From positions 71,810,910 through 71,874,909 of the forward strand of contig NC_134839.1 in NCBI RefSeq assembly GCF_965363235.1: 64,000 nt of DNA. Direction: 5' to 3'. A program made the translations under genes and the position numbers. Below the pieces are notes generated by a model. That model did not search any database. It was given only the letters and a program-made list of their open reading frames with translations, and had not been told where the DNA came from. This stretch comes from Mytilus galloprovincialis (Eukaryota; Mollusca; Bivalvia; Mytilida; Mytilidae). This document shows, piece by piece, positions 15,101 to 56,113 of this stretch (position 1 is its first letter; each line of letters opens with the position of its first letter).

Positions 15101-18100
15101 TATAAAAACGTGAAAAATATTGTACTCACTTCGCCCACACCAATAAATACTCTACAAACAGTTAGAAGATATGGACTTATTCTGGCACAGATTGGTGTAA
15201 GTAGTGTTAGTGTCGATACTAGTAGCATTCCTATTGAAATAATAAGTCGAGGTCCAAATCTTTCTGCCAACCATCCTCCGGGAATCTGTAGAAAGGTGTA
15301 ACCCCAGAAAAATGCACCAAGTATCACACCTTGCAGTTGTTTGTCCCAAACAAATTCTCCCTTCTAAAGAATAGGATATAATTGAAATTAATTAATATCA
15401 AAGACAGTGGAAAATGTCTTTGAGCTTCTTTGAATATATTTATGAATAAAACAAAAAGTCTCACTATGTGTTTACAGCATGTTTTACAAGTTTCTTTAAA
15501 AAAGTATAATTCAGAAACACTGCTGTGTTGTGTGATAACTATTATTTATGTGTCATATGTGGAAATAAGTTTTTAGTCATTCACTATATTACTTTATATT
15601 TGTCGGTTCCTTTTTTGGAAATAAAACTCTTCTCAACTGTATCGGTTAATATTCACCCTGGGCTTTCAGGTTTTCGGCTCTGAGTGTTCCTGATCATGCC
15701 GATGACTGTAAATCTAAAATAGCGATTCGGACGCATACAATTTTTAACGTGTTGTTTTCATTTTCTTTTGTCTATATTAGTTTATGGTTATATGTATAAA
15801 GACCTAATCCAAAAGACCTTCAGACACCATTCAGTGAACACTGACAATCTGATGATTCGTTGATTTTTCAGATCCATTAAAGGAAAATAAATTAAGTATT
15901 TCTTCATATTTAGAAACGTATTTTTGATAGGATCTATTTATTTGCTTTAATAATAAGAAAAGATGACGAAAACAACAATTTATGAATTTCATACGACCGA
16001 AGCGCTTATCTTGGTGTACATACATCAAGAATACACAATGCCCATTATTGAAAGGCAATGATGTATAAGAACCGAAACAGTTCAAGTTTAAAGTTGTGGT
16101 TTTATCAGCGGGAGGTTCAGCTAGCCATAAAAACAGGGTCAATCCACAATTTTTTCTTAAAATGTGCTCTGTCAGTTGTTATCTACCGTCCTTTTCTATG
16201 TATGTTGGTGTTTGCTTTTGTTGTAGTTCAGTGTTTCTGTTGTTCCGTTTTTTTTCCCTTAAAGTTTATGTGTATCACTCAGTTTTGAGTTTGTTACCCG
16301 GATTTGTTTCTTATTAATAGAATTATGACGATTGAACAACGATATACTACTTTTGCATTTAAAGATTGTTTTCATATTTCTTTAAAAAAAATAATTACTG
16401 TTACATGTACTTTTTTGAAAATAAATAAAGGTAATCAGAAAACCAAATGGGTTTTACTCACTTATTGTATTGATTCACGGTTTTAATTTTGTAAATTGCA
16501 ACTGAAAACAATTATAAATCATTAAAAGCTGAGAGGGGGATCAATATCCAATACAATTATGTAACATTGTTTTGTTGTTTTGTTGCAGTGAATAAACAAA
16601 TGTGTTTGTGATAATTCTCAGAAACAGCAATTATTTACGACACGTATTGATATAGCATTCCAAATTTGATGATAATTGGCATAACTATATTTTAGATTAT
16701 GGAATTACTGCATTTGTACACAACTCTGACTTATTTAGAACAATGGTCAAATGAAGCATCATTGGGATGTAATTCTGCATAATGCCGAAAGGGAATACCA
16801 TTAAAGAGCATTTTCAGCAACATCTAGTCTGAGAAGGCTAAAATCTCACAAAATGGCATACTTCTTAACAGAGGCACATTGATTTATGACTGGCATTAAA
16901 AATATATAGTAATTTTGTCGTTTTGTAGCAATATATTTATTGACCCAATGTGTTTTTAAAGATTTTCATTCAATTTGTATGTTCATTTTCTATATTTTAG
17001 TGATCAAAGATATTATTTCTCATGCCCTATATGGGACAACAGCTGCTATTATCTTACCTCCTATACATTTCTAGGAATATGATTGGTTAAAAGCGTCCAC
17101 GTGAAGACCGTGTATATTCAATATTAGGTTAGTAGGGAGGCGGGGCTTAGTTCAATACACGGTTAGTAGTGGATTTACGACTTTGGCACTGTTTGTTTAT
17201 TTAAAAGATAATAAATAGTTATTGTTTGTATTATTTTTTAGTACAGACCAATTGAAGAAGGTTCTTAAAATTGAACACTTGAACACTTAAATATAGAAAT
17301 AAGAAGATGTGTTGTGATAGCAAATGAGACAACTCTAGTCTAAATTCAACAAATAAAGATAGTCGGTAAGATATATTCGTTACATAGTGTGCTAGTGACC
17401 TAATATGATATATACGGGATCAGTAAATATCATATTAGGTCACTAACACACTATGTAACTAATCTATACTATTAAACGAGAAGACCTCATTTTTTGGTGT
17501 CGCTTCTCTTCTTTCCACAATAAATTAATCAACACGCCTCTGTGTCCTATAGGTACAGTGCATAGTCGCATTTGTCATCCATTCATATGATTATTCAGAT
17601 TGAGTTATTTTAGGAGAAAAACGAGAAAAAAAGGCATCCGGGTATTGTCCCGTCATTGTACGAAATTTTAAGTCAGATTAGACTTCCGGTTTGCGTTTTT
17701 CTGTATACTTTGAACATACATATATACTACGAATAAAGTGTATTTTCAGTATTTTATCTGCTATCATTTACAAGTTTACTATTCACGGCAGTCACAGAGT
17801 TTATTAAATAGAGAGTGTCTGTATACTATATCAATGATCACCATGGATCGATTAGTAAACTTAGAATTGAAAGTAAATACGCTTTATTTATATAGAGGGG
17901 GGATAGGACCTTTATCGGGACTCCGGGATCGGGTGTTTTTAAGCTCGGGATTTCGGGATTGACCCTTTCGGGATCCGGGAATCCTTTTTTTCGGATTTCG
18001 GGATGTCGGGATTTGCTTTATTTAAATTCGGGACCTCGGGATTTCGTTTTTTCAAGTCCGGGATTTCGGGATCAAGACCCCTCCTATCCCCCCTCTATAT

Positions 18101-28257: not shown

Positions 28258-28660
28258 TATATAGTTATCAAAGGTACCAGGATTATAATTTAGTATGCCA
28301 GACGCTCGTTCCGTCTACATAAGACTCATCAGTGACGCTCATATCAAAATATTGATAAAGTCAAACAAGTACAAAGTTGAAGAGAATTGAGGATCTAAAA
28401 TTCCAAAAAGTTGTGCCAAATATGGCTAGGGTAATCTATGCCTGGGATAAGAAAATCCTTAGTTTTTCGAAAATTTCAAAGTTTTGTAAACAGAAAATTT
28501 ATAATTATTCATGATATTCATGTCAACACCTGGGCTGGTGATACCCTCGGGGACGAAACGTCCACCAGCAGTGGCATCGACCCAGTGGTGTAAATAGTTA
28601 TCAAAGGTACCAGGATTATAATTTAGTACGCCAGACGCGCGTTTCGTCTTACATAAGTCT
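28258..28660 (+). repeat. family C repeat, unit plus partial second unit
   Basis: Starts AGTTATCAAAGGTACCAGGA and TTTAGTATGCCAGACGC, runs through GATACCCTCGGGGACGAAAC and GTCCACCAGCAGTGGCATCG, then begins again at about 28600 with the same AGTTATCAAAGGTACCAGGA. The 45412-45838 copy has the same unit-plus-start structure. Confidence 0.75.
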
Positions 28661-38109: not shown

Positions 38110-39390
38110 TTACATTTATGAGAAATATATTGTCACGTGAATATGACAAAAAATGGACTGATGAGGTATTTAAGATATCAAGAAGGTTTTGGACAAATAA
38201 ATAAATGTATGACACCTCTTCATCGCATAAAAAAAAACCAAAGAATGGGAATAGCTTGAATTTACTACCAATCTGAACTCCAACTAATACTCATTAAAGA
38301 CAATGCATTGTAGAAAATTGAAAAAGTGTTAAATTTTAGAATTTTGGAATTTTGGATCCTCAATGCTCTTCAACTTTTTACTTGTTTAGCTTTATAAATA
38401 TTTTGATATGAGCGTCACTGATGAGTCTTATGAAGACGAAACGCGCGTCTGGCGTACTAAATTATAATCCTGGTACCTTTGATAACTATTAAAACCCAAA
38501 TGAAGAGAGTCCTATAAACAATATTTATTTTATATTAAATGATTAGTTTAATTCTTGGGTGAAAACATACAGTGACATTGAAGATTATTAATTTAATAGA
38601 TTTGCATACAATTGTTTATTATTTCTTTTTTCATAACTGTATTTTAAACATAAAAAATGAACGAAATAAAAGTGTGAATTGTACTATAAAAATAATATAT
38701 ATAAAATAAGATTACGAATCTTCAATTTTCCAACTAAAGAGCCATATACATGATATAGTACGCATGCAGTGACAAATTGTATATGATCATCCTCAACTTT
38801 ATTAATGTACAATATGAACATTTATTTTTCTAAGTTTTTTATTCAAAATAATTTGTGCGTATTTATCGGTCTCAATCCTTTATTGATGAGCTTATTCTAA
38901 TCTTACAGAATGATTGCCTTAATCTAAAATCTTTAAAATCCAAATATTTTTCAAAACAGAATGCAGGAAAATCAAAGGGAAAATAAATATTACATTTACC
39001 TTGATCTGATTATTTCACTTAATTCCCATTTTCCTTCAAGAAATGAAGATAGTTTTTATGTTTTTTTTTATAGATTTTGTGAAGGAGTAGATATATATAT
39101 ATATATATACTATATATATCGTGTATGTTTATAAATAATCAGTAAATAAAAAGCAGGTAAAAACTGGCATAATCTAGATATAGATTGATCGTATTCTAAA
39201 CAAATCTTTAAAGACAAATTGACTGTCACTTTGTCTTTGATAAACATGTTTGAAACAAAGACAAAAAGCGAGCAAGGCAAACAAGCTAACCAAACTCTTA
39301 CTCTCCATGTATTGAAAATTGACTCTAACACAGTGATTGTTTAAAGTACGTCCTTTATATACGGCAGTTGTTATCAGATACATTAATTTT
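38110..39390. other. intergenic; one family C fragment
   Basis: Family C, inverted, at 38340-38495 (GATGAGTCTTATGAAGACGA, AACGCGCGTCTGGCG). The rest is AT-rich with nothing recognised. Confidence 0.45.
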
Positions 39391-41095: not shown

Positions 41096-41776
41096 TCGTT
41101 TCCCTTATATCAAAACCTTTTCCCAGGTTATCTTATTAATTGCGGATAACCAGTTGAAACTAGTATAAAGAAAGGACATTCGTGGTCAAAGAAGGTAAAA
41201 AAAACCATACTGCTATACACCTGTTTCTATGGGCTTTAAATTTTAATAAAGGTGCCGAATTAAGGAGTTCATGCATCTTATATGCGAGTTTTGACTTGAA
41301 TTAAAGTATGGAGCTTCGAGATATTAAATCTTTTGAACTACTAGAGATACAAATTTGTTATAGCTAAAATACAAGTGGATCATTCATGTGCAGAAGTATT
41401 AATTATGGGGATAAAATTCCATAGAAAGATAAAAGGTTAATCTTTTCAAAGAACCAACTTCCATCTCGGTCTGCGGCGACATTTTTATGGAAAAAATCTT
41501 AAAAGTGAGTTCAGTTTCGCACTTTATTTGGCCTTTTAAACATTTTTTGATTCGAGCGTTACTGATGAGTCTTTAGAAGACGAAACACGCGTCTTGCGTT
41601 AGTGTAAAATTTTAGTCCTGGTATCTATGATGAGTTTATTTCATCGAAGAGAAAGTCGTTTGCACCTTATTATGTTCTGGCGTGTTGCATTTAACTATTT
41701 TGTCTTGAGAACATATAAAACAACATACACACAAAAATTGATTCATCAATCTACTTCAGTTTCTCTCTTTTTTTAG

Positions 41777-45411: not shown

Positions 45412-45838
45412 TAAACTCATTATAGATACCAGGACTAAAATTTTACGCCAGACGCGCGTTTCGTCTACAAAAGACTCATCAGTGACGCTCGAATAAAAAA
45501 ATGTTTAAAAGGCCAAACAAATTACGGAGTTGAAGAGCATTGAGGACAGAAAAATCCTAAAAGTTTAGCCAAATACAGCTGAGGTAATCTATTCCTGACG
45601 TAGAAAAGCCTTAGTATTTCAAAAAATTCAAAGTTTTTGTAACAGTTAATTTGTTATTATGAACATAGCAATGATAACTCCAGTCAACACAGAAGTGCTG
45701 ACTACTGGGCTGCTGATACACTCGGGGAAATAAATCTCCACCAGCAGTGGCATCGACCGAGTGGTTGTAAATAAACTCATCATAGATAACAGGACTAAAG
45801 TTTTACACTTACGCCAGACGCGTGTTTCGTCTACAATT
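45412..45838 (+). repeat. family C repeat inserted in the RT remnant
   Basis: AACTCATTATAGATACCAGG, ACGCCAGACGCGCGTTTCGT, GTCGA-type middle, CCACCAGCAGTGGCATCGAC, then the start repeated at 45773. The RT frame resumes directly after it (LLDNIYVRFG-like). Confidence 0.75.
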
Positions 45839-46349
45839 TTCTCCTTGATAATATTTATGTACGTTTCGGCAATAAAGTTTATCGACAGTTTGCAGGTATC
45901 CCTATGGGCACTTATTGCGTCCCTTTAATAGCTGACTTGTTTTTGTACTGTTATGAATCATAGTTATGACTAAACTCGGTAAAGACCCGTCGAAATTAAA
46001 ATCAACAACACTTACAGTTATCTTGGTGAGATATTTTCGTTAAATAATCAAGAATTTTCTCAATATACTGCTGAAATTTACGTCAAGGAACTTACTTTAA
46101 ATAATTCAAATTTAAACGGTTATAACATCCTTTCCTAGATTTAGATATTTCGGTATTAAACGGGAAACTCCAATCTAAAATTTACGACAAAAGGGACGAT
46201 TTTTCGTTCCCTAATTTTAAGTTTCCATTTTTAGATGGTGATGTTCCTTTGGCATCATCTTACGGTGTTAATATTTCACAGCTGCGCTATGCCGGTGTCT
46301 GTTGTGACGTTTTTGAATTTATAGGTGTTCAACGTAATCTATGTATTAC

Positions 46350-46495
46350 TGGTAAATTATTAAGCCAAGGTTTCATTACTGGTAAATTATTAAGCCAAGG
46401 ATTGATTACTGGTAAATTATTAAGCCAAGGATTAATTACTGGTAAATTATTAAGCCAAGGATTAATTACTGGTAAATTATTATGCCAAGGATTTC
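46350..46495 (+). repeat. 30-bp tandem repeat inside the RT remnant, 5 copies
   Basis: The unit is ATTACTGGTAAATTATTAAG CCAAGGATTA, ten codons (ITGKLLSQGL). In related elements this motif occurs once, so it was amplified in place. Confidence 0.9.
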
Positions 46496-46569
46496 GTTAT
46501 CTTTACTTAACTTTTCCATAGATATAAAGATTTGGTTTGAAGTTTGGTTGTACCTGTAGAATAAAATTG

Positions 46570-47175
46570 AGAATGGGAATGGGGAATGTGCCAAAGAGAC
46601 AACAACCCGACCATAGAAAAAAAAAACAACAGCAGAAGGTCACCAACAGGTCTTCAATGTAGCGAGAAATTCCCGCACCCGGAGGCGTCCTTCAACTGGC
46701 CCTAAACAAATATATACTAGTTCAGTGATAATGAACGCCATACTAATTTCCAAATTGTACACAAGAAACTAAAATTAAAATAATACAAGACTAACAAAGG
46801 CCAGAGGCTCCTGACTTGGGACACGCGCAAAAATGCGGCGGGGTTAAACATGTTTGTGAGATCTCAACCCTCCCCGTATACCTCTAGCCAATGTAGAAAA
46901 GTAAACGCATAACAATACGCACATTAAAATTCAGTTCAAGAGAAGTCCGAGTCTGAAGATGTAACATAAGAAAACTAAACAAAATGACAATAATACATAA
47001 ATAACAACAGACTACTAGCAGTTAACTGACATGCCAGCTCCAGACTTCAATTAAACTGACTGAAATTTATGATTTCATCATATGAACATCAGGCACAATC
47101 CTTCCCTTTAGGGGTTTAGTATCATACCATCATAACATATATGAGAAGAACATAACCCGTGGCATGCCAACAAAC
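46570..47175. repeat. family F dispersed repeat, near full
   Basis: GGGAATGTGCCAAAGAGACA, CAACCCGACCATAGA, TCTTCAATGTAGCGAGAAAT, GAGGCTCCTGACTTGGGAC, and GGCGGGGTTAAACATGTTT. Inverted copies at 59060-59345 and 60755-60870. Confidence 0.65.
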
Positions 47176-47349
47176 TTCTTTCAAACGGGATAGCACATCT
47201 TCATTTTACGGAAATGATGTTAACCGTGCCTGGAAATTTAGAAATTTAGAAATAACAAGAAGTAATTGTAACAGGATGCTGTTACGAAGTCTCCCAAACA
47301 AAGCTCCCATAACTCGCCATTCATATGGTCCCATATTCATTTGATTTGA

Positions 47350-48515
47350 TTTTTTGTCCCATACAAGAATATATATGGCTTAGGGGTGGGGATCTCCACC
47401 ATTTACAAGTATTCAAACAGGACAGGGTGGTGGTGACCCCCCAGGTACTTTACCTGCATTTCATTTGATTTGTTTTATTGTCCCATACAAGAATATATCT
47501 GGTTTAGGGGTGGTGATGTTGACCGTTTACAAGTTTTCAAACAAAAGGGGATGGGGTGACCCCCTCGGGACTTCCCGTGAATTACATTTCATTTGTTTTA
47601 TTGTCCCCTACAATAATATATATATATGGTTTAGGGGTGGGGATCTGGACCGTTTACAAGATAATAGCACATTCTCAGATTGAACGGAGTGGGGGTGACC
47701 CCCAGGAACTTCCCTTTAATTTTATTTGATTAGTTTTATTGTCCCATACAAGAATATATATGGTTTAGGGGTGGGGATGTTGACTGTTTACAAGTTTTCC
47801 AACAAGAGGGGGTGGGGTGACCTCATAGGGACTTCCCTTTTATTTCATTTCATTTGTTTTATTGTCCCCTACAAGAATATATATGGTTTAGGGGTGGGGA
47901 TGTTGACCGCTTACAAGTTTTCAAGCAAGAGGGGGTGGGGGGACCCCCTCGGGACTTCCCCTTTATTTCATTTCATTTGTTTTATTGTCCCCTACAAGAA
48001 TAAATATGGTTTAGGGGTGGGGATCTGGACCGTTTACAAGATAATAGCACATTCTCAAATTGAACGGGGTGGGGGTGACCCCCAGGAACTTCCCTTTAAT
48101 TTCATTTGATTAGTTTAATTGTCCCATGCAAGAATATATATGGTTTAGGGGTGGGGATGTGGACCGTTTACAAGTTTTCAAACCAGAGGGGGTGGGGTGA
48201 CCCCCTAGGGACTTCCCTTTTATATCATTTCATTTGTTTTATTGTCCCCTACAAGAATATATATGGTTTAGGGGTGGGGATCTGAACCGTTTACAAGATT
48301 ATAGCACATTCTCAAATTGAACGGGGTGGGGATGACCCCCGGGGACTTCCCTTTAATTTAATTTGATTTGTTTTATCGTCCCATTCAAGAATATATATGG
48401 TTTAGGGGTGGGGATCTGGACCGTTTACAAGATAAAAGCATATTCTCAAATTGAAGGGGGTGGGGATGACCCCCCAGGGACTCCCCCTATATTTCATGTG
48501 ATTTGTTTTATTGTC
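47350..48515 (+). repeat. large minisatellite, about 10 units of 115-135 bp, two unit types
   Basis: Every unit has TTTTATTGTCCC, CAAGAATATATATGGTTTAG, GGGTGGGGAT and GTTTACAAG. Type 1 continues TTTTCAAACAAGAGGGGGTG; type 2 continues ATAATAGCACATTCTCAAAT TGAACGGGG. Types alternate irregularly. Both end in GACCCCC-GGGACTTCCC. Confidence 0.9.
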
Positions 48516-48589
48516 CTATAATCATTTCTAAAGACTGCATGTATCTATCACTTACAGTTTTCAAGTTATATTCATTTGAAAATTTTAGA

Positions 48590-50319: not shown

Positions 50320-50580
50320 AATCATATCTTTCAGATCTTTTATTCATCGTAAAGTCATACTTGTATCTAATTCGCTAAGAAAGCACGAATGATATAGGAA
50401 AAGAATGCACAATCTACCTATATCTTATCATGTTATCAACTATATTCTACAGTCATCACTGTTTACGAATAGAGTTTCATAATGCCTTTGAAATTAGATA
50501 CAACTATAACATAAAGCGATCAATATGAATATTTGTTATGATATGAAATATATGAATAAGAAAATTGTTTATATGAACAT
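50320..50580 (-). terminator. GPX 3' UTR with polyA signal
   Basis: AATAAA on the minus strand at 50344-50339, about 240 nt after the stop. The UTR contains the SECIS hairpin. Beyond it lies satellite sequence. Confidence 0.55.
50436..50480 (-). promoter_or_regulatory. SECIS element, type II fold, in GPX 3' UTR
   Basis: Read 5' to 3' on the minus strand: ATGA (50480-50477); helix strand AACTCTATTC (50476-50467); GT; unpaired AA (50464-50463); mini-helix ACAGT, loop GATG, ACTGT (50462-50449); A; helix strand GAATATAGTT (50447-50438); GA (50437-50436). The main helix pairs 9 of 10 bases with one C-U mismatch and the mini-helix pairs 5 of 5. AA lies 12 nt after ATGA, as in known SECIS. The helix below the core is weak. 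It lies about 100 nt after the stop codon and before the polyA signal. Confidence 0.85.
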
Positions 50581-50811
50581 TTATCCGACTACCGGTATAT
50601 CTACCGGTCCATCATGTCGGCTTTTCTTTAATTCTGCTGTAATATCATCTTGAACTCGAGGTTCTGTTGGATCTACCAAAATATAATATCTTTTAACAGG
50701 CTTGCCGTCTCGGCCAATCAAAAATTTCTCAAAATTCCATCTTACGTCTCTTGAGTCTATTGGGCTCCAATTCATGCCAAACATTCCATATGAAGTTGGC
50801 TCACAATATTT
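50581..50811 (-). CDS. GPX: GPX exon 3, C-terminus
   Basis: Residues 151-226 and TAA stop. [12 protein letters not shown], then [20 protein letters not shown] with catalytic Trp175 and Asn176, then a basic/acidic end. Acceptor ATTTCAG. Confidence 0.93.
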
Positions 50812-53800
50812 CTGAAATAAATTAAAAATTTACTAAACATGTAGCTTGAATCAAACAAAATAAACTTTATTTTTTATTTTGTAACTTACAGAGATCAAAT
50901 TATATATATGTTACAGTAAATAGGTGAAATTAGGAATTACATGTAATTACTAAAATTTAGGAATTACATGTAATCCCCAATGCACCTAGTAAATACATGT
51001 AATTCCTGAAACGGCCTAGTTATTACCAGTAATTACTAATTTTAAAATGATTTTTTACACCTATTTACTAACTATTAAAACAATGTTGTAATATGGTCAG
51101 CTGAGGAAAAGTTATGGTAATACTAACTATAGAAGATCAGTGATATAGTGAAATTATAATTCACTTTTAGCAGTCAATCTGGATCTATTTTACTAAAAAA
51201 AAAGCTGAGAAACTTGCTTGATGAGTTGTGCACTTGCAAGTGAATAATTGGACCTCATTGGATACTTATTCATGTGACCTTCAATTTAACCCCTAGTTGT
51301 AGATAGGTTACCAATGTATTCAGATTTAAAATTGAAAGGGTTTCATGGAACCCAGTATATCGCCTACATTTGCTGTTAGTTGCAGGCTCAACAAAAATGG
51401 GGGGGGGGGGGGAAATATTAAAATTTTCCTCCATATACTATCTTTTGTCTAGGACTGTAAGAAGTTTTTGTCCAAATTTAGTTAAAATCCAGGATGGTTT
51501 ATGAAATCTAATACGTGTTTAAGAAAAACTTACATAAAAACTAGTATAAGTTTTTTTTATAAAATACGGAAAAAAATGATTATATTTTTACAAAATTTTC
51601 TTCTTGAAAATGATCTTATGATCATAAGCAAGCTTCTGTTCAAGTTTGGGAGAAATCTAGAATAATTTTAGAAAGTTATCAAAATTTTACGAACTTCAAG
51701 GGGGTAGGCCTTGGTAACACCAAAATTTTCCTCTCGTTTAATTTTTCTTATATTTGCATCATTGAAAATATGTGCATCATCTGCCAAAGTCTTAAGGAAA
51801 TTGACCTTTTCATTTTATGTTTAGGGTATATTGAATATGACCAGTTTTGGGGTACCCTACAAACCTCGAAAAGACTAGTAGGTAAAAATCATTGAATGTT
51901 TTTGCACATGTTGTCATTAGAAATACCCCTGACTGTAAAATTGCATAGAAGAAACATATTTAAAGTAAATCTGAAACATAATGATAATACAAGAGGGTTT
52001 GGATGGGTTTAAATGATTAAAGAATAATGCCCTTAAAAATGAAGATTAGAGAATAACGGGCCAAAAAAAAAAAGGAAATTAGAGAAAAAAGGGGTTAATT
52101 TTTTGAAGATTAGAGAAAAAAGGGGTGAAAATTAAATGTTTATAGAATAACAGCCCCCCCCCCCCCCCCCCCCCCCCATTCCAGACCCTCAAACAAATAG
52201 CCTGAATTTTAAAAAGAAATAAGTATTTATTCATTGATACGGCGAAAAGTCTTGCCAGCTCAGATAACACATTTTTTTTCAGATTTAGACAGAAAAAAAT
52301 TGTAGTTTAATTCCTGCAAAAAATTGTTTAAACATTTGTTGGTTATTAATCTTTAAAATCACAAAATTTTGCTTTATCAAATGTCTATCATCAAAATGAG
52401 GTTGCGAAGTTGTCTGTAAACTTCTCACAATATTTTTCAATTTTGGATTGATATCATTTGACTCGCATGCTGAAAATGATTTGTAGGGAGTATCAAAACT
52501 TTAATAACAACTATTTTCCAGTTTCAATTCACAAACACTACAGAGCATACACTTTCAGTGTGCCTTATATTCTTTAATCCTTAATTAAGTAAGCTCTAAA
52601 ATACCTACCGTTTACTTTCTTATTTTGTATCTTGATTTATATCTTTAATTTTAAAACAAAAATATCAAGTTAGTAAATAGCTGTAAAAATTACAAAAAAA
52701 GTCAGTGAATACCAGTAATCACTGAAACAACTAGTAAATACATGTAATTACTAAATTGTCTAGTAATTACAGGTATTTACTGAAATGTTTAGTAATTACG
52801 TGTAATTCCTAATTTCACCTATTTACTGTAACATATATACCATTTCCTAATATAGAAACACATGACTGTATAAACTTGAAGAAGTAAATAATATTGACAG
52901 TTAATAATCATAATAATCTGTATTGCAAAATTACACCCATAAGGGCCAAGCAATACAAACAAACAATTATACATTTTAAATACAATGCAATACAATACAA
53001 TATAATAGAACATTTTTTAAGAGTTCGAATTATATATTGATATATAAAACACAATCATGAGCTTGTCTGAATTATACTTCGCACGCATCAAAAACGAATC
53101 TTGTGATATTATTCATGGTAAAGTACTATACGTGTACATGTATAAACTTGTATACCAATTTGAGTTTGCTGTTTTTCGTTATTATTCAAAGACACTATAC
53201 GCCAGTTCTAAATCTAGAAATAACAAATCCTCCGCATTCATGTTTTCAGTGATAGACAACGATTCAGTGGAATCTAAACTGTTTTCAGTTGTTTTTAAAG
53301 ATTTATAGCATATTTTTTTACTATGGTATTTGAATTAACATCCGTATATAGTTATATGGTTCCGAGACGTCTATAAATGCACAGAGTTAGCAGCATCTTT
53401 CAGTTCCCTGAGTTTCATCACCATTATGATAAGCATGCAAGTCCTTCAATTGAACATCTCGAAATGTGTATACATTTGAGAATATCTTTATTAATAAGAG
53501 ATAATATAAATTACCTTTAAGTACGTGAAAAGAGGGTCTTGATTTTGCCCATTGACTTCTATCTTTTCTGTTAATGGAAAATTGGGAACAAACCCAAATC
53601 CGGGACGGACATGAGTAATTCCATTCATGATTTCTGTTGAGTTTGCGCCAGGTTCTTGCTGTAACAAAAAAAGGTATTACTATCATGAAAAATGTAATCT
53701 TGCATCTTTTTGGGATAATTGGTTTATGAATAAAAAAAAATGAAGCTTTCCTTTAACACAAGCATAGAATAGAATAGAATATACTATTCCGAATGAAATG

Positions 53801-56113
53801 GCCCACAATGGCAACGTGAGATAAAAACATTACACATATTAAACAAATACGAAAGAACAACACTGAGGGAGAGAGTTATTAATTGATAGCATTTATTGAC
53901 GCTCACAAAAACAAGGATATACATATAATCTTCAAATAATCTACGTCATTTGGTATTTGGAGGATGATTGTCTCATTGTCAATTTAATATATCACATCAT
54001 CAATATTTTATCTATTTTGCAATCGACCTTTCTACTAATACATGATACAGGTGTGCAGATAACACTTAGCGTATATTATATATTCCTGATATTGTGACAG
54101 CGATATTTTCCGCTTTGTTTTATTTCGTGGACATTCAAACTTCATCAATAAGCAACATTTCATCAAAAAGCAAGATACTATTGTTCTCAAAATTGTCAGC
54201 TTACATGTTAAGAAGTTAATAAATTTTAATCCTAGCATTGTCTATTTCTTGTTATCGTATATATGTTTTTAATTGTATTATTCGTTTATAGCATTACGTG
54301 ACAAATGTAAATGAGCAGTTGGATACCAGCGGTCAAGCTGTACGGACGCCGTGCATTTACAGTGACATTCATTGTGTTTAGTATAGAACATTTATTGGAA
54401 TTACCATTTGTTTTGTCTTTTCGGAATATTTACCGTTGAACTGTTATTGTAATTAATGTATTGCACTATTGAAGAAGTTGTATATAAACCATCGTAAAGC
54501 TAAACTTATGTTTGTTTCATCAGTATCCAGTGACTTTTCACCCGAATTCTAAATATAACAGGAACGACGAAAACCCCTGTTGTAATATCCTGCTTCTGTA
54601 ACGAGCGAACGGTTATGTCAAATTACTGTTAACGTCACGGTTCAATTTGGAGTCCTCTTAGAGGTCCGCGTTTAAGATTTGATTTGAGATAATAACTTTT
54701 TAGTGTCTTTATATATTAGCTGTATAAGTGTACTCGGCTCGAAACAGTGGTACTAGCTCATTGAAACTCGCATTACACCTGTTACTTAGCCTTGTACATT
54801 TGTACAAATACAACTGATTCTAAACAGTTAATGTCTATAATCCATATACATGTAGGTAGAATTCCACGTACTATCAAACAAATTAAATATAATTGTCCAA
54901 ACATTACAATGAAGCATATTTGTATTTATTTACCATTTGGATAATTAATGCATATTTATTTTAATTTGTGTATATCTCAAAGCATACGGACTTAAAAAAA
55001 TAATAATAAATTTGCGACGCTGACAAATTTGATGTGTAAATGAATAGACAGCAGATACCATGTAAAAATGCTGGTATGATACTTTATCTTACCTCCTATA
55101 CATTTCTAGGAATTTGATTGGTTGAAAGCGTCCTCGTGGAAACCGTGTATATTTAATATTAGGTTAGTTGGGAGGCGGGGCTTATTTCATACACGGTAGT
55201 AGTGGTGTTACGTCCCTTTAGAAAAACAAAACAGTACTGAGAAAAATCTTAATGGTTTCAACAGACGAAGAAAGTGATGATAAAGTGAAATAAATTCATA
55301 AAACACATTTAAATCTAACAAGTTGTCATTGTTGTTATCTGTTTTTGTAGGATGCAAGGAAGTAGTTTCTTAATCATGTTAATGCTAACTCAGTGTATTG
55401 AAGACTTGCTCATTTTGATAGGTCACTAGTCTAAATTTTACACGTTAAGATAGTCGGTAAGATAAATTCGTTACATAGTGTGCTAGTGACCTAATACGGT
55501 ATATATGGCGTCAGTAAATTCCATATGGGGTAAGAGCGGCACCCCATATGGAATTTACTGACCCCATATATACCGTATTAGGTCACTAGCACACTATGTA
55601 ACTAATAATATTAGGAGAGAGCCACACACAATATGTTAAGAGAAGTTGCGATAAAGTTTTTTTTTATCATTTTTAAATCTCTTTTAAAAGTTTTATTTTA
55701 AGTTGGAAAGAAAATAATATAGCAAATTGTTCGCAGTAATAAGAGTTTATTAAGAGTTTCATATTAAAGGACATTTGGAAGTGTGAATAAATAATTATTA
55801 AACTTACATAGTGAAACTGGTTACAAGGAACTCCAATCATCTGAAAGTCCTTGTTGTTTGATTGTAGTGCATTCATTCCATGGTACTGGTACGTGTGCCC
55901 TCAGTAGGTAGCCACGTTAACCAACATTACCACTTTTCCTCGATAGTCGGAAAAATTAATGGTCTCATTCATATGAACATTTTTTAGTTGAAAGTCGTAC
56001 AAAGTAGTATTTTCGCTACTAGGAACATGACAATTGCCCACCCCATTCTCTTGCCCCCGGATTGGGGACAAAATTGTCAGTACAGCAGAGAAAAGTAAAC
56101 GCCAGTCAGCCAT
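50581..56113 (-). CDS. GPX: secreted glutathione peroxidase, selenoprotein of GPX3 type
   Basis: Exons in coding order: 56113-55808, 53658-53515, 50811-50581; all junctions phase 0; 226 residues, like vertebrate GPX3. The enzyme reduces hydrogen peroxide and organic hydroperoxides with thiols. Residues 1-20 form a probable signal peptide ([20 protein letters not shown]), so it is secreted or lumenal. The in-frame TGA at 55901-55903 falls in NVATY-Sec-GHT, exactly where GPX selenocysteine lies (residue 71). The rest of the catalytic tetrad is present: Q103 (HYQEPG), W175 and N176 (RWNFEKFL). PCNQF and the loop [10 protein letters not shown] through the start of exon 3 match tetrameric GPX1/3 enzymes. 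A TATA-like palindrome lies about 50 nt upstream of the ATG and a SECIS hairpin lies in the 3' UTR. A conventional annotation that stops at TGA would truncate it to 70 residues. Confidence 0.95.
50904..52839. mobile_element. 1.94-kb TIR element in GPX intron 2
   Basis: Outer inverted ends: TATATATGTTACAGTAAATA GGTGAAATTAGGAATTAC and its inverse. Inside each end lie several copies of AATTACATGTAATT and AGTAAATAC/GTATTTACT words, so the arms (about 190 bp) contain sub-repeats. The core has G and C runs and no transposase frame. Confidence 0.85.
52154..52177. repeat. 24-base C tract
   Basis: Uninterrupted C run inside the TIR element. Similar G runs occur near 14319, 43270 and 51400. Confidence 0.95.
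53515..53658 (-). CDS. GPX: GPX exon 2
   Basis: Residues 103-150. It opens with [20 protein letters not shown]; the first residue is the catalytic Gln. [20 protein letters not shown] and LFTYLK follow, as in GPX3. Acceptor GTTACAG, donor AAG/GTAATT. Confidence 0.93.
53690..55080. other. GPX intron 1, no repeat or gene recognised
   Basis: AT-rich. Short frames only. Confidence 0.45.
55088..55604 (+). repeat. dispersed repeat ending in a long hairpin, copy 2
   Basis: The hairpin at 55470-55602 has 60-base arms, longer than in copy 1, with a short loop AAGAGCGGC. The left block (TTACCTCCTATACATTTCTA, GGAGGCGGGGCTTA) matches copy 1. It lies in GPX intron 1, about 200 bases from exon 1. Confidence 0.78.
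55808..56113 (-). CDS. GPX: GPX exon 1 with selenocysteine codon
   Basis: Residues 1-102: signal peptide, N-terminal strands with two sequons (NTT, NET), [15 protein letters not shown] (Sec71), [13 protein letters not shown], and GVPCNQFHY. Donor TAT/GTAAGT. The frame stays open for 31 codons past the TGA with family-specific sequence. Confidence 0.94.

Follow-up and report, generated by a model that had tools for sequence, protein, structure and literature searches.

A probable selenocysteine-containing, GPX3-like glutathione peroxidase gene of Mytilus galloprovincialis, with a type II SECIS of its own and a second SECIS in a neighboring retroelement fragment

The stretch of mussel DNA analyzed here, 64,000 nucleotides long and referred to as the window, carries on its minus strand a host gene that we consider, with high confidence, to encode a selenocysteine-containing glutathione peroxidase (GPX) of the molluscan GPX3-like group. 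The gene is most likely functional, its product is probably secreted, and its in-frame UGA would be decoded as selenocysteine under the direction of a SECIS in the 3' untranslated region (UTR). For a bivalve this is an ordinary gene; it is of a known kind and is a new member of that kind at this locus. Its features are as follows.

55808 to 56113, minus strand: GPX exon 1, with a hydrophobic N terminus (signal-peptide-like by eye), the catalytic NVATYUG and PCNQF
55901 to 55903, minus strand: in-frame TGA, residue 71, the presumed selenocysteine codon judging by alignment and paralogues
53515 to 53658, minus strand: GPX exon 2, in phase 0 at either end, with query borders identical to those of its counterparts in paralogues L043a and L045
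50581 to 50811, minus strand: coding part of GPX exon 3, with RWNFEKF and the TAA stop
50427 to 50488, minus strand: type II SECIS of the GPX gene, its ATGA starting at 50480
50339 to 50344, minus strand: AATAAA poly(A) signal, 136 nt past the SECIS ATGA
50897 to 52845, strand not applicable: 1.9-kb element in GPX intron 2 whose terminal inverted repeats have arms of 58 nt (95%)
55466 to 55606, strand not applicable: foldback (66-nt arms, 97%) in GPX intron 1

The three exons are all in phase 0 and encode 226 residues, and the exon borders, phases, product length and selenocysteine at residue 71 are as claimed by the first-pass annotation, which had described a complete selenocysteine GPX gene. 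All four splice sites of the two introns are GT/AG. The TGA is the single internal stop in the frame, which ends in TAA, and across the 226 codons there is no further stop and no frameshift. The product matches the Pfam GSHPx model (PF00255) with 105.6 bits, where the cut-off is 27, and contains the catalytic tetrad as U71, Q99, W175 and N176, the last three being the Gln, Trp and Asn that had already been pointed out; these residues have a catalytic role in the GPX tetrad. Sequence related to the foldback in intron 1 is also present at positions 17049 to 17463 of the window.

When the product was compared with the PDB by phmmer, 41 distinct sequences were matched at E values of up to 0.001, the best being GPX5 (4.7e-47), GPX6 and GPX3. 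All five alignments shown cross the TGA, at which GPX5, GPX6 and GPX3 have Cys, Cys and Gly, respectively, GPX2 has Cys and 1gp1 has X. This bears out the earlier statement that the TGA occupies the GPX catalytic position and that family sequence continues beyond it.

The SECIS of the gene starts 568 nt past the UGA and precedes the AATAAA. It consists of ATGA, a helix formed by AACTCTATTC and GAATATAGTT, GTAA, the apical mini-helix ACAGT-GATG-ACTGT and GA. The ATGA, AA and GA elements, the 5-bp mini-helix and their order and spacing are therefore as the first-pass annotation had described for a type II SECIS, except that its 10-bp helix is made up of 9 Watson-Crick pairs and one C.U mismatch. 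The ACAGT/ACTGT mini-helix is also present in the minimum free energy structures; MAFFT gave no structural alignment of the SECIS set, and the pairs were tabulated by hand. In its motifs and spacing, the element fits the NTGA__AA__GA rule given in the accessible part of PMC2375036.

Rfam SECIS_1 matches the GPX 3' UTR with 22.1 bits at an E value of 0.057, which refers to 351 nt and 4,227 families and corresponds, by our own division, to about 1e-5 for a single family; this score is short of the gathering score of 35. Consistent with this, no SECIS was listed in the Rfam scan at the gathering score, and the GPX SECIS was not among the matches of a relaxed scan of the whole window. The gathering score is a cut-off set by Rfam and not a structural feature, and it is a weak test here because Rfam also lists nothing for a well-formed SECIS candidate of a paralogue (L041). 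A strict SECIS pattern applied to the two strands of the 64-kb window gave two matches in all, of which the GPX SECIS ranked first with a score of 18 versus 13 for the other, the second SECIS described below. In 40 shuffled windows, the pattern matched 1.6 times each on average, and 0.15 times each at a score of at least 18 with a mini-helix of at least 3. Among dinucleotide shuffles of the 241-nt UTR, 1 in 1,000 equaled the score of the GPX SECIS. The folding stability of the 3' UTR stretch is not unusual (z of -0.38), but the pattern itself is more than chance.

In the genome, a 1.38-Gb assembly of 331 contigs, the window occupies C2:71810910-71874909. The assembly contains two tRNA-Sec genes, scoring 79.6 and 77.0 bits, with the anticodon TCA. 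The GSHPx model gave 19 exon-sized matches in this assembly, and those outside the gene described here were compared in nine fetched stretches (L041 to L049). Six more GPX exons have TGA at the catalytic codon (L041a and L041b, L042, L043b, L044 and L045), while the codon is Ser in L043a and Cys in L048 and the catalytic exon was unmatched in L046, L047 and L049. For five of these TGA paralogues, a SECIS-like pattern was seen beyond the final exon that could be located; in the sixth, L041a, the last exon was not located. The candidate of L041b is well formed (0 of 1,000 shuffles as good) and that of L045 is fair (11 of 1,000), whereas L043b and L044 have weak candidates (equaled by 86 and 63 of 1,000 shuffles) with the quartet GTGA, which is assigned to class II in the accessible part of PMC2679728. 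The best-scoring candidate among the paralogues is that of L042, but it is separated by 1.7 kb from the final matched exon position, and the shuffle controls cover the other four candidates. No SECIS pattern was found within 1.4 kb of the genes in L043a, L046 and L047, in which no TGA was seen. A wider scan gave a weak pattern about 4.9 kb on in L047, two patterns at a score of 19 in the Cys-encoding L048 (a copy of the retroelement discussed below and one 5.2 kb on) and none in L049. Over kilobases, the association of the SECIS pattern with TGA paralogues is thus suggestive and not exclusive. Rfam SECIS_1 gave no match in six paralogue loci at E values of up to 5, nor in the L041 3' UTR at E values of up to 3.

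The closest GPX paralogue, L045, has at positions 62 to 1513 tandem units of 114 nt, composed of an intron end and part of the selenocysteine exon, 5' of the full exon. A GPX with multiple selenocysteines encoded by this repeated exon was considered and rejected, as stops interrupt the array between units and each unit contains an intron end, which makes the array non-coding.

Taken together, a selenocysteine GPX with a type II SECIS is the best-supported reading of the locus, because homology flanks the TGA, the SECIS lies 568 nt past the UGA and before the AATAAA, tRNA-Sec genes are present in the genome and paralogues retain the TGA. We propose that the two introns are spliced out of the transcript and that the 3' UTR SECIS recruits the machinery for selenocysteine decoding, allowing tRNA-Sec to read the UGA of codon 71; the resulting enzyme would then reduce peroxides by using its Sec/Gln/Trp/Asn active site. 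It is conceivable that the gene is instead a decayed copy, with the TGA acting as a genuine stop and the SECIS match arising by chance. The Rfam score below gathering would agree with this, as would the broken appearance of one paralogue (L043 gene a, of C9), a tandem GPX copy at 2973 to 3173 of L043 whose catalytic residue is Ser, whose last exon contains a stop and which is likely itself decayed. However, 226 codons free of any other stop or frameshift, GT/AG splice sites, retained tetrad residues and a correctly placed SECIS make decay of the gene in the window very unlikely.

Apart from the SECIS of the GPX gene, the window contains a second one, with the following features.

47079 to 47143, minus strand: second SECIS, in a retroelement remnant outside the GPX gene, SECIS_1 32.2 bits
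46555 to 47173, minus strand: 3'-end fragment of the retroelement that holds the second SECIS, presumably Penelope-like, boundaries approximate

It was the one match of the relaxed SECIS_1 scan and hence the strongest in the window. The first-pass annotation did not mention it. It lies on the same strand 3.3 kb downstream and ranks above the gene's own SECIS in Rfam. Since it is stronger (32.2 bits versus 22.1), on the same strand and 3.3 kb away from ATGA to ATGA, the GPX gene could be thought to rely on it by way of a 3' UTR that is longer or spliced, and animal genes with two SECISs, namely, Nematostella Gpx_a and Branchiostoma DI_b, are reported in the accessible part of PMC3473315. We regard this as even less probable than decay of the gene, as the second SECIS lies beyond both the gene's own SECIS and its AATAAA and represents one instance of a retroelement end that is dispersed in the genome, 39 further instances of which were scored at 94 to 98% identity. 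Least probable of all is that the 32.2-bit SECIS, which has no known gene attached, marks a host selenoprotein gene that has gone unrecognized in the region from 47 to 50 kb, since ten minus-strand open reading frames (ORFs; eight of them from 47 to 50.3 kb, most with TGA read as selenocysteine) gave one Pfam match at E values of up to 1, a DUF below the cut-off (E of 0.11), and SECIS copies elsewhere sit behind a retroelement frame. The second SECIS belongs to the retroelement and most likely has no part in the GPX gene, and a stronger SECIS lies near this gene because a retroelement 3' end is present there.

A genome search with 251 nt around the second SECIS gave 1,635 first-look candidates, 40 of which were scored; the 39 copies other than that of the window mostly match from position 47173 onward. 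Twelve copies (L029 to L040) were fetched with 5 kb upstream, and nine of them contain frame pieces of at least 110 codons of one protein with the motifs YLDDI and IPMGTNCAPL, which by motif we take to be a reverse transcriptase (RT). Farther upstream, the element has a part with CGIQYVGET that is presumably GIY-YIG-like. The copy in the window consists of the 3' end only. Among 23 SECIS instances, a tail of the RT-like frame was found 5' of the SECIS in 18 by regular expression and in two more by eye, the exceptions being the window copy, L013 and L048. Twenty of these 23 instances differ solely by A or C at one position of the apical loop. This near-identity reflects a young family and is no sign of selection on the SECIS, because an exact 23-base core served to select the instances, which come from the best-scoring copies.

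The retroelement seems to use selenocysteine itself. Four TGA sites in its frames were scored by alignment with X at the query codon: TGA is present at EN1 in 3 of 3 matched copies, at EN2 in 4 of 4, at EN3 in 4 of 5 and at RT1 in 6 of 6. The fifth sequence at EN3, a different but related one (L038), has TGT (Cys), and at RT1 the shifted L033 gives TGA in one of two alignments. The rest of the 12 copies gave no match at the four sites, and the sites are not independent across near-identical copies. Frameshifts, further stops and isolated extra TGAs disrupt the frames in the fetched copies, and searches of these frames against Pfam, NCBIfam and, with the RT piece, PDB sequences gave no domain match over the cut-off. 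Scans of viral contigs with the second SECIS, the GPX protein and the repeat core, and of a genome-contig collection with the second SECIS, gave no matches.

Several other features of the window were noted. At 46126 to 46521 on the plus strand, an ORF (FLDLDISVLNGKLQSKIYDKRDDFSFP) resembles by eye the RT-like frame of a retroelement of the kind described above, on the strand opposite to the fragment. Positions 47336 to 48520 hold about nine tandem units of about 125 nt inside a longer element, whose ends by eye seem to be AGTCTCCCAAACAAAG inverted repeats. Four matches to the hammerhead type I model were found at 38412 to 38455 and 41556 to 41599 (plus strand) and at 45445 to 45488 and 28295 to 28338 (minus strand), with 26.1 to 33.0 bits, all short of the gathering score of 34. 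None of the ten ORFs compared with Pfam, out of 24 in the window of at least 100 amino acids, had a match over the cut-off.

The GPX described here adds one more well-delimited selenoprotein gene, a kind that annotation reportedly gets wrong in vertebrates (PMC12822975). The retroelement result outweighs it in interest. If correct, it would mean that strong SECIS elements are spread genome-wide by a young selenoprotein-encoding retroelement. Because the best Rfam match in the window is mobile, a SECIS scan of the mussel genome cannot be read gene by gene. Sense copies of the retroelement SECIS lie near two host GPX genes, namely, 3.3 kb past the SECIS of the gene in the window and, at about position 2600 of L048, about 95 nt past the end of a Cys-GPX exon match and probably in an intron. 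An enrichment near GPX loci (2 copies in 153 kb versus 0.18 expected from the 1,635 candidates; P of about 0.015) is not claimed, because the comparison is post hoc and the copy number is uncertain. That host genes could co-opt such mobile SECISs, easing the gain of new selenocysteine sites, is an unlikely though conceivable extension. A retroelement with four shared TGA codons, its own SECIS and many near-identical copies provides a natural test of SECIS movement between genes.

Naiad Penelope-like elements of clams and spiders reportedly encode multiple selenocysteines (Craig et al. 2021). Like these elements, that of the mussel seems to have an N-terminal GIY-YIG-like part followed by an RT-like part, several shared TGA codons and a SECIS in its 3' UTR; this likeness concerns the neighbor at 47173 to 46555 and not the GPX gene, and the clade assignment is a tentative one by motifs.

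As for the GPX, its assignment to GPX3 is partly supported. GPX5, GPX6 and GPX3 gave the best PDB scores, and the GPX3, GPX5 and GPX6 chains (2r37, 2i3y and 7fc2) share the tetrad and 45.8 to 46.8% identity over the matched parts. However, GPX1 is about equally similar (46.2%), and the GPX3/5/6 chains have RPGGGF or RPGGGY where the mussel protein has RPGFGF. A small tree built from 11 sequences places the protein next to L045 and joins these two to the C9 pair, outside vertebrate GPX1/2 and GPX3/5/6, with supports of 74 to 79. We use the term GPX3-like because this tree sets the gene apart while published trees, in the accessible part of PMC7824116, place mollusc GPx3 beside vertebrate GPx3/5/6. 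The same part of that work describes selenocysteine GPX3 genes as expanded in bivalves, and those of the scallops C. farreri and P. yessoensis resemble the mussel gene in having several copies per genome and PCNQF and WNF-type motifs. These are other species, and the mussel locus, its SECIS and its introns are known from sequence only. The crayfish CqGPx3a/b, as presented in the accessible part of PMC8872551, likewise use UGA for selenocysteine and have a type 2 SECIS and a signal peptide (by eye only in the mussel), and the CqGPx3a form also has AAUAAA in a short 3' UTR; in contrast, these arthropod proteins have a longer C-terminal part than the mussel GPX.
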